From Chloroflexota bacterium (GTDB lineage Bacteria > Chloroflexota > Limnocylindria > Limnocylindrales > CSP1-4), in NCBI GenBank assembly GCA_015478725.1, contig JADMIG010000001.1:62001-126000 (forward strand): a stretch of 64,000 nucleotides of DNA. The letters are read 5' to 3'. Numbering within the stretch: the first letter of the stretch is position 1; every line of letters begins with the position of its first letter. The notes under the pieces are model-generated. The model did not search any database. It worked only from the letters and a program-made list of their open reading frames with translations, and was not told the origin of the DNA. Position numbers and translations under genes: made by a program. This document shows, one piece after another, positions 22,410 to 25,049 of this stretch.

Positions 22410-23456
22410 TCAGACGACCTCGCCGGCCTCGTCGACGACGGCGGGCGTCGCGGGTCGGGCAACGCGGGCTGGCGGGGCGGTCCGGCTTCGGGCCGTGACG
22501 ATGAGGGCGACCGCACCGACGATGACCACCGCCGCGACCACCGTCCGCCCGGACAGCGCCTCACCGAGGAAGATCGCACTGAGGACGAAGGCGACGATCG
22601 GGTTGACGTAGGCGTACGTCGCGACCTTGGGGAGCGGTGCCACCCGGAGGAGCCAGACGTACGTCGTGTAGCCGATGCCGCTGCCGATCGTCACGAGATA
22701 GGCGAGCGCAGCCCACGAAGCCGGCGTGACCGCGGCGAGCGAGAAGCCACGAGCCTCGTCGGTGATGAGCGCCATGACCGCGAGGACCACACCGCCGCAC
22801 AGCATCTGGATCGCCGTCGCGACGAGCGGCAGGCGCGGCAGCCGCGCTCGATGCGACGAGTAGAGCGAGCCCGATGCCCAGCAGATCGGCGAGATGAGGA
22901 CCGCGAGGAGTCCGCCGGGGTCGAGGGCAAGGGTTCCGCCTGCCGGGGCGACGAGGATCGCCACGCCGACCACGCCGAGGGCGATCCCGACGACCACAAT
23001 CCGCGGCAGGCGTTCGCCGAACACGATCCGGCCGAGGACCGCGACCCAGACCGGCATGAGCGCGATGAGCAGGGCGGTGATCCCCGACGGCACCGTCCGC
23101 TCGCCGAGGGCGACCATGCCCATGCCGCCCCCGAGGAGGAGGGCGCCCACGATGAACGAATCGCGGACCTCTCGCCGCGTGACCGCGAGGGCCGGGCGTC
23201 CTTCGCGGATGACGGAATAGCCGAGCAGGAGGAGTCCGGCGAGGAAGAAGCGCCCCGACGCCATGAGGAACGGCGGCATCGTCTCGACGGCGATCTTGAT
23301 CCCGATGTACGTCGAGCCCCAGACGACATACAGCGTCGCGAGACCGGCCCACAGGGCGAGTGGTGTCGCCGACATCGCGGGCGCGATGGCTCCGGGACCC
23401 GCGGGCGTGGCTTCGGGTGCCGCGGTGCCAGGCGTCGTCGCAACGCCGCTTGTCAT
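22410..23456 (-). CDS. EamA/DMT-superfamily exporter
   Basis: Inner-membrane metabolite exporter. After a Pro/Ala-rich N-terminal tail there are about ten hydrophobic helices in two EamA repeats, with LYVVWGSTYIGIKIAVETMP in the first helix and YAYVNPIVAFVLSAIFLGE near the end, both typical of RhaT/EamA proteins. The ATG at 23456 is preferred: it is the nearest start before the first helix. It abuts the convergent GMC gene. Substrate cannot be told; amino acids or drugs are usual. Confidence 0.82.
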   Translation of the reverse strand: MTSGVATTPGTAAPEATPAGPGAIAPAMSATPLALWAGLATLYVVWGSTYIGIKIAVETMPPFLMASGRFFLAGLLLLGYSVIREGRPALAVTRREVRDSFIVGALLLGGGMGMVALGERTVPSGITALLIALMPVWVAVLGRIVFGERLPRIVVVGIALGVVGVAILVAPAGGTLALDPGGLLAVLISPICWASGSLYSSHRARLPRLPLVATAIQMLCGGVVLAVMALITDEARGFSLAAVTPASWAALAYLVTIGSGIGYTTYVWLLRVAPLPKVATYAYVNPIVAFVLSAIFLGEALSGRTVVAAVVIVGAVALIVTARSRTAPPARVARPATPAVVDEAGEVV

Positions 23457-23596: not shown

Positions 23597-24403
23597 TCAG
23601 GCCGCCATGCGGACCGGTCGGCACGATCGGCAGGGGCGATAGCCGCGTGCCTCGGCGTCACCGAGCGACCGGAACGGAACGCGGTGCGCGTCCACGATCC
23701 GCCGCGCGTGGCGGCACGTCGGGTGGCAGACGACCCGGGTCGTGTTGGACCCGACGAAGCGGATGCCGCTGACCGCGAGCGCCTCGAGGCGGTCCGGATC
23801 GGCACCCTCCCAGGTGAGGAGCGAGTGCTTGTTCTCGGGCCCGCCGAGCGAATACCGGCCGATGTGTCCGTCCGTCCGGACCACCCGGTGGCACGGGATG
23901 ACGAGCGGGATCGGATTCTTCGCCAGCGCCGTTCCCACCGCCCGGACCGCCGCCGGATGGCCGATCTCCGCGGCGATCCAGCCGTACGGCCGGACCTCAC
24001 CGCGGGGGATCTCGGAGGTCTTGTCGAGGACGGCCCGCTCGAAGGCCGTCCGCCCGCGGAGATCGACCGGCACGTGAGCCCGGCGATCACCGGCGAGGCG
24101 CCGCTCGATCACGCGGGCGAGCCGGGTGGGGAGCGTCGCGACCCGGCGGATCGGCCGATGGAGTGCCGCCCGGAACTCGGCCTCGAAGGCGGACGCCTCG
24201 CCGGTGCCGGAGATCGTCGAGACGCCACGGCCATTCCAGGCGACCCACATCGGCCCGATCGCGGTCTCGATCGGCGCGTAGTCGTCGGCGAGGCCGAGGA
24301 TGACGAGGGTGTCGCCGACGAGCGTCGGCGGTGCCGCGACTGCGAGGCCGCGCAGGGCCTCCTCGATCGAAGCCGTCGAGCGGTCGCCCGTGGTCGAAGT
24401 CAT
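23597..24403 (-). CDS. O6-methylguanine-DNA methyltransferase fused to a C-terminal Ada zinc domain
   Basis: A suicide DNA-alkyl repair protein with an unusual order. Residues 1-115 are a degenerate N-terminal part. Residues 115-200 form the Ogt domain with the acceptor motif IPCHRVV (Cys171). Residues 213-265 match the Ada N-terminal zinc/phosphotriester domain, with Cys226, Cys230, Cys258 and Cys261 spaced C-x3-C-x27-C-x2-C. In E. coli Ada the first of these cysteines takes methyl groups from phosphotriesters. Ada normally carries this domain first, joined to an AraC HTH; here it is last and no HTH is present. The ATG overlaps the stop of the ECF sigma gene (ATGA), so both are made together. 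Confidence 0.85.
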   Translation of the reverse strand: MTSTTGDRSTASIEEALRGLAVAAPPTLVGDTLVILGLADDYAPIETAIGPMWVAWNGRGVSTISGTGEASAFEAEFRAALHRPIRRVATLPTRLARVIERRLAGDRRAHVPVDLRGRTAFERAVLDKTSEIPRGEVRPYGWIAAEIGHPAAVRAVGTALAKNPIPLVIPCHRVVRTDGHIGRYSLGGPENKHSLLTWEGADPDRLEALAVSGIRFVGSNTTRVVCHPTCRHARRIVDAHRVPFRSLGDAEARGYRPCRSCRPVRMAA

Positions 24404-24972
24404 GCGATCGACTCCTCTCGTTCGGCCGCCTCGAAGGCGGCGCGGAGCAAGGCGAGGCCCCGGTGGACCTGGGCGCGGATCGTGCCCTCCGGCCGGCCGA
24501 GGACCTCGCTCATCTCCTCGTAGGACAGGCCGTCGACGTGCCGGAGCACGACTGCCGCCCGATAGCGGGCGGGCAGACCGGCGACGAGGGCGGCCCAGTG
24601 CGCGGCCGACTCGCGCCGGGCGAGCCGCTCGTGCGGTGTGTCGGACGGCCCGGCGGCAGCGGTGAGGTGCGGTGCATCGGTGAGCACCGTCGTCGGGAGC
24701 CGGTGGCGCGCGACCCGGCTCCGACAGAGGTTGATGACGATCGTCGCGAGCCAGGCCCGAAGCCGGAGCTCGGCGATCCGCTCCGATCCGTACGAGCCGA
24801 GCGCCCGGTGTGCGCGGACGAACGCGTCCTGGGCGATCTCCTCCGCGTCCGCCGGGTCGCCGAGGAACCGGAGGGCGATCGAGTAGCAGCGGTCGGCGTG
24901 CGCCCGAACGAGCGCCTCGAAGGCGCCGTCGAGGTCGCGGGCGAGGGCGTGGAGCAGGTCGTCGTCGTCCAT
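24400..24972 (-). CDS. ECF RNA polymerase sigma factor
   Basis: A ~190-residue group 4 sigma factor. Region 2 spans about residues 15-75 (YSIALRFLGDPADAEEIAQD, then AFVRAHRAL). A linker follows, then region 4 at about 130-180 with the HTH LSYEEMSEVLGRPEGTIRAQ. No anti-sigma gene is adjacent. The only coupled gene is the Ogt-Ada fusion, whose start overlaps this stop. The ATG at 24972 follows GGAG; the GTG one codon before is an alternative. Expression of repair or envelope genes under alkylation stress is inference from the pairing. Confidence 0.88.
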   Translation of the reverse strand: MDDDDLLHALARDLDGAFEALVRAHADRCYSIALRFLGDPADAEEIAQDAFVRAHRALGSYGSERIAELRLRAWLATIVINLCRSRVARHRLPTTVLTDAPHLTAAAGPSDTPHERLARRESAAHWAALVAGLPARYRAAVVLRHVDGLSYEEMSEVLGRPEGTIRAQVHRGLALLRAAFEAAEREESIA

Positions 24973-25049
24973 CACACTCCAGAACCAGCGGGGTGTGCGT
25001 AGCGTTGCACTATCATCCGTCGCGCTGGCGCTCGCCGATCGGAGGTCCG

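Follow-up and report, generated by a model that had tools for sequence, protein, structure and literature searches.

Conserved coupling of an ECF sigma factor to an Ogt-Ada fusion points to a sigma-driven alkylation-repair regulon

An ECF sigma factor, encoded in overlap with a fusion of an Ogt methyltransferase to an Ada zinc domain, appears to run an alkylation-repair regulon, a conclusion that is well supported, on computational grounds, by a conserved promoter and by the genes found behind it. We lean towards the view that this regulon is autoregulated, and that the fusion serves it both as repair enzyme and as probable sensor; that the fusion itself controls the sigma factor, probably as an anti-sigma factor released by methylation, we regard as an even call. 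Slightly short of even, and held more tentatively, is the widest reading, in which a soluble suicide repair enzyme would act in several phyla as anti-sigma factor or methylation-gated partner, such that its self-methylation by damaged DNA directly sets ECF activity, by a mechanism unrelated to that of AraC-type Ada. In textbooks, the adaptive response to DNA methylation stands for the repair protein that also activates its own transcription.

The gene pair lies on the reverse strand of the window, by which we mean the whole 64,000-nucleotide stretch of Chloroflexota DNA analysed here (Table 1). The sigma factor scores over the cut-off for PF04542 (Sigma70_r2) and PF08281 (Sigma70_r4_2) in Pfam, as well as for TIGR02937, and lacks region 3; possession of regions 2 and 4 only, within about 180-200 aa, places it in the ECF family (group 4 sigma-70). 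The ATG of the fusion (24403-24401) overlaps the TGA that ends the sigma gene (24402-24400).

Table 1. Coordinates of the sigma-fusion operon, its promoter and the domains of the fusion (window numbering).
Feature	Position	Strand	Remarks
-35 element TGCAACG	25003..25009	-	fits consensus over 58 non-redundant promoters
-10 element CTGGTT	24983..24988	-	variant of CGTGTT; 14 nt after the -35 heptamer
ECF sigma gene	24400..24975	-	191 aa from GTG 24975 or 190 aa from ATG 24972
ATGA overlap, fusion start and sigma stop	24400..24403	-	23 of 24 family loci
Ogt-Ada fusion gene	23597..24403	-	268 aa
N-terminal extension	24290..24403	-	residues 1-38; two short helices; ...AP..L... motif
Ogt / O6-alkylguanine methyltransferase domain	23804..24289	-	residues 39-200
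PCHR Cys171 codon	23891-23893	-	within Ogt domain
Ada zinc-binding domain	23615..23767	-	residues 213-263; Cys226, 230, 258, 261
EamA (DMT-type) transporter gene	22410..23456	-	PF00892; directly downstream of fusion

Within the fusion, Pfam recognises PF01035 (E 3.5e-29, residues 121-200) followed by PF02805, Ada_Zn_binding (E 9.7e-9, residues 213-263). The former part carries the features of an Ogt or MGMT enzyme, namely the PF01035 fold, the PCHR cysteine, the flipping Arg and the conserved Asn and Glu. Of the features of Ada, the four-cysteine zinc domain is present, yet C-terminal rather than N-terminal, and the AraC-type HTH between zinc domain and Ogt is absent: no HTH is found by Pfam, although HTH_18 does appear in the same type of scan for the true Ada of a relative, and the AlphaFold2 model, which is confident throughout (mean pLDDT 91), leaves no room for one. 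The fold matches of this model include the M. tuberculosis Ogt (4wx9) and the C-domain of Ada (1sfe), together with a weak match to methylated N-Ada (1u8b). Both Cys171 and the zinc-domain residues Cys226, 230, 258 and 261 are invariant across 25 relatives; the four zinc cysteines correspond in the alignment to C38, C42, C69 and C72 of E. coli Ada, and 63 of 64 fusions retain the full set. The equivalent of R71, with which Ada reads the A box (PMC4437013), is lost in 60 of 63.

Genomes of the same family carry the fusion at 47-69% identity, with the sigma gene directly upstream in all 24 loci that have enough flanking sequence, and with the same 4-nt overlap in 23 of them. When about 85,000 species genomes were scanned, the fusion turned up in Chloroflexota, Dormibacterota, Rokubacteria, Methylomirabilota and WPS-2, as well as in Acidimicrobiia, Nonomuraea, Actinomadura, Pseudonocardia, Actinomycetospora and Streptomyces natalensis; across Chloroflexota, Dormibacterota, Actinomycetota and other phyla, the sigma gene is directly upstream in every testable fusion locus except one (L125). 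Chance linkage of the two genes is excluded. Besides sigma and Ogt, neighbourhood clustering of 39 loci revealed no gene that recurs across phyla. No anti-sigma gene adjoins the pair in the window, and Pfam recognises no anti-sigma domain in the fusion. The initial annotation had described a 268-residue protein whose start overlaps the stop of an ECF sigma gene, composed of Ogt and a C-terminal Ada zinc domain with the residues numbered as here, devoid of an HTH and unaccompanied by an anti-sigma gene. Both reading frames and the ATGA are confirmed, the architecture is correct according to Pfam and the alignments, and the lack of an anti-sigma gene agrees with the absence of any recurrent third gene around the 39 loci; the sigma-Ogt-Ada pair, for which a search of genomes had been proposed, is conserved across phyla.

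Upstream of the sigma gene, a promoter of consensus YGCAAC(C/G)-N14-(C/G)GTGTT ends 7-11 nt before the start codon across phyla, from which it follows that the sigma transcript is probably leaderless. The promoter of the window, TGCAACG-N14-CTGGTT (25009-24983), belongs to an xxGGTT variant common to L010 and L016, and its -10 element stands 7-10 nt before the sigma start in the same leaderless arrangement; that of Nonomuraea reads TGCAACC-N14-GGTGTT. With a threshold of at least 10 of 13 matches, which shuffled sequences reach in 35 of 1,400 trials (2.5%), the promoter precedes the sigma gene in 22 of the 24 family loci; among the cross-phylum loci it does so in 31 of 39. A pattern combining promoter and start codon returned about 22 distinct sites in 61 family genomes, and 39 sites in 107, with none in the reversed control on either occasion, whereas the exact full consensus, applied over 37 genomes, was too strict, yielding four sites of which two were this operon. 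Only the -35 and -10 elements are conserved among 58 non-redundant promoters, and as these were chosen by pattern, that conservation is partly built in; the upstream region is the unbiased test, and its 60 bp before the -35 element hold no conserved box and thus nothing resembling an Ada box.

The same promoter stands before further repair genes, and it is the roles of these targets in repair that tie the sigma factor to alkylation. In Chloroflexota relatives, six of seven orthologs of a second, stand-alone MGMT gene have it upstream, as does one more distant copy; at these stand-alone loci (L180-L187), whose presence in the family is patchy, it lies directly before the start codon. Another 27 Ogt paralogs in the family are without it. 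In three of four Actinomadura strains, and in weaker form in the fourth (L230-L233), the promoter precedes a PF09859 gene, the product of which is, according to the Pfam description, an oxygenase acting on damaged DNA. The PF09859 genes of Nonomuraea showed no such promoter, so that we claim control of the oxygenase for Actinomadura only. The conserved ECF promoter that the initial annotation had suggested seeking ahead of repair genes is accordingly found before the operon, the second MGMT gene and, in Actinomadura, PF09859. At least one of the Nonomuraea PF09859 orthologs (L236) appears instead to lie behind an Ogt gene. In the genome from which the window derives, a relaxed pattern of its own promoter type matched the operon and two other places, and the operon alone has a convincing site; the wider regulon is therefore one seen in relatives rather than in this genome. 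One of its matches (L178), situated about 300 nt ahead of an EamA core, could be due to chance. Five more promoter-like sites in Streptomyces natalensis (L210, L220, L224, L225 and L228) were left out, there being no convincing gene behind them; the other genomes tested differ.

Pairs without a zinc domain bear on how such a sigma factor might be switched. At L131 and L134 the same type of sigma factor is partnered by an Ogt that lacks the zinc domain, and L131 also has the sigma promoter. A second ECF-Ogt lineage joins a more distant ECF sigma factor to Ogt alone, again through ATGA overlaps; its members are L028-L031, L071, L072, L076, L150, L155, L162, L166, L168, L169, L172 and L174, with Nocardia and Rhodococcus, and their Ogts have no Ada domain and a different N-terminus. 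At L071, L072 and L076 the sigma start is preceded by a shared GCGTCACA-like sequence rather than by the YGCAAC-type promoter. In two lineages, pairing does without the zinc domain. The suggestion in the initial annotation that the methylated zinc domain controls the sigma factor is weakened by L131, L134 and the second lineage; the zinc domain as sole switch is disfavored because sigma-coupled Ogts without it exist, and any switch may reside, as L131 and L134 imply, in the Ogt domain alone. What tracks with sigma coupling is instead an extension of about 38 residues at the N-terminus, which sigma-coupled Ogts of the fusion type possess and uncoupled ones lack, among them L125, the sole complete fusion without a sigma gene. 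This extension is the best candidate for a contact with the sigma factor.

On the strength of motif and gene content, the sigma factor would read the consensus promoter before its own operon and before a few other alkylation-repair genes. Because the fusion is co-translated with the sigma factor and carries the sigma-coupled extension, it is most likely a sigma inhibitor, and the unmethylated form would bind the sigma factor and keep it inactive. From the chemistry of its family, the fusion is expected to take methyl groups irreversibly from O6-alkylguanine onto Cys171, and probably from methylphosphotriesters onto Cys226; such transfer from DNA may be the switch that frees the sigma factor. 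Freed sigma would then induce more fusion, and the new fusion would repair DNA, recapture sigma and end the response once the lesions are gone. E. coli Ada offers a precedent, in that its activation of transcription depends on contact with RNA polymerase and on the sigma subunit (PMC4437013). The loss of R71, together with the missing HTH and the missing box, indicates that it is now the sigma factor which selects the promoters. Among relatives, 16 genomes have the fusion and two have another PF02805 protein, with none having both; of the latter two, one encodes a canonical Ada, as judged from its domain order, and the other is G023. The proposal that alkylation is answered through sigma rather than AraC thus stands as the best reading of the pair, the promoter, the absent HTH and box and the lost R71, and its zinc-switch component does not fare as well.

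Operon membership and autoregulation would look alike if the fusion were merely a target of the sigma factor, and a fusion that is target only, or one that co-activates through protein contacts, fits the genomics nearly as well as an anti-sigma role. We consider it unlikely, if a serious contender, that the sigma factor drives repair genes among which the fusion is only an enzyme, being itself switched by its own transcription, by proteolysis, by another protein or by a growth signal, with the overlap doing no more than fixing stoichiometry. Several ECF groups without anti-sigma factors are indeed controlled transcriptionally or by proteolysis (PMC8999054), the catalytic residues are intact, and by its promoter the fusion belongs to its own regulon. 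Yet the 1:1 overlap with sigma is kept across phyla, whereas the other promoter-bearing repair genes are neither coupled nor adjacent to it; the extension tracks with sigma coupling, and the 39 loci offer no other conserved candidate regulator nearby.

Less probable again is a positive role for the methylated fusion, as a co-factor that contacts the sigma factor or promoter DNA and raises transcription in the manner of methylated Ada with sigma-70. Methylated E. coli Ada activates through contacts that it must make with RNA polymerase, and the sigma subunit is essential for Ada-activated transcription (PMC4437013), a precedent with which the retention of zinc cysteines in nearly all fusions is consistent. 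Against this are the want of any conserved DNA box upstream of the 58 promoters, the missing HTH, the loss of the A-box-reading arginine, and the occurrence of two lineages of the same sigma type without the zinc domain; a DNA-bound, Ada-like activator is disfavored by the lack of a box. Anti-sigma factors unlinked to their targets exist, and one encoded elsewhere in the genome might control the sigma factor. We judge this very improbable, given that no neighbor recurs in the 39 loci, and that ECF122, which comes nearest among the groups described, figures in the list of those without a cognate anti-sigma factor (PMC8999054).

The bare pairing of sigma factor and methyltransferase is already known in outline, through a group of sigma factors, ECF122, to which the initial annotation made no reference; nor did it mention the EamA gene. 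A 2022 review lists ECF122 sigma factors as having no anti-sigma factor, 6-O-methylguanine methyltransferase neighbors and an unknown mechanism (PMC8999054). The present pair resembles that group (Casas-Pastor et al., 2021, cited in PMC8999054) in its ECF sigma factor, its lack of an anti-sigma gene and its nearby 6-O-methylguanine DNA methyltransferase gene, a likeness drawn from the description of the group's neighborhood rather than from its sequence model. It differs in that at least two separate ECF-Ogt lineages exist, and the review makes no mention of an Ada domain, the promoter, the regulon or EamA. A literature search of partial coverage returned no description of the Ada fusion, the promoter, the repair regulon, the EamA link or the N-terminal extension. 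With the E. coli Ada regulon (Ada, AlkA, AlkB, AidB) the system shares a suicide methyltransferase composed of Ogt and a four-cysteine Ada zinc domain, apparent autoregulation, and alkylation-repair genes that include an oxygenase; unlike Ada, its fusion has the zinc domain at the C-terminus, no AraC HTH and no Ada-box-like site, and promoter specificity would reside in the co-encoded ECF sigma factor. A canonical Ada (Ada_Zn - HTH_18 - Ogt) with the same two repair domains occurs in one genus of the family (g3; L073 and L074), but in the classical order with its HTH, without an adjacent sigma gene and in genomes without the fusion. Operons of ECF sigma and anti-sigma factors of the ZAS or zf-HC2 type likewise place sigma first and an overlapping partner second behind an autoregulated promoter, although the partner here is a soluble DNA-repair enzyme with no recognised anti-sigma domain. 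If the anti-sigma reading is true, several phyla have met the same problem with an ECF sigma factor and a partner consumed by methylation, and a sigma group listed without a known signal would gain one. The system is present in actinomycetes that can be cultured (Nonomuraea, Actinomadura, Streptomyces natalensis), so that a test can draw on an exact promoter, on target genes and on defined residues for mutation.

The EamA transporter gene is likely the third gene of the operon in the window's bacterial family. It has a proposed ATG start at 23456, the longest reading frame running from 23624. In 20 of 26 family loci, a gene of this type comes after the fusion on the same strand, an observation drawn from the window together with L002-L021 and L023. 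The genome of the window has about a dozen EamA genes, such that this repeated association is unlikely to be due to chance. At L006 and L007 the EamA gene belongs to another subfamily and has a 4-nt overlap, and a sigma-type promoter precedes EamA genes in three other genomes (L033, L051, L274). On a Dormibacterota contig (L102), a LigD-like DNA ligase gene comes after the fusion. On the other side of the pair, at L004, L006, L007, L010, L013, L015 and L016, a gene lying upstream of sigma in divergent orientation carries a conserved ATTGTCGCA, which reads TGCGACAAT on that gene's strand, immediately ahead of its start.
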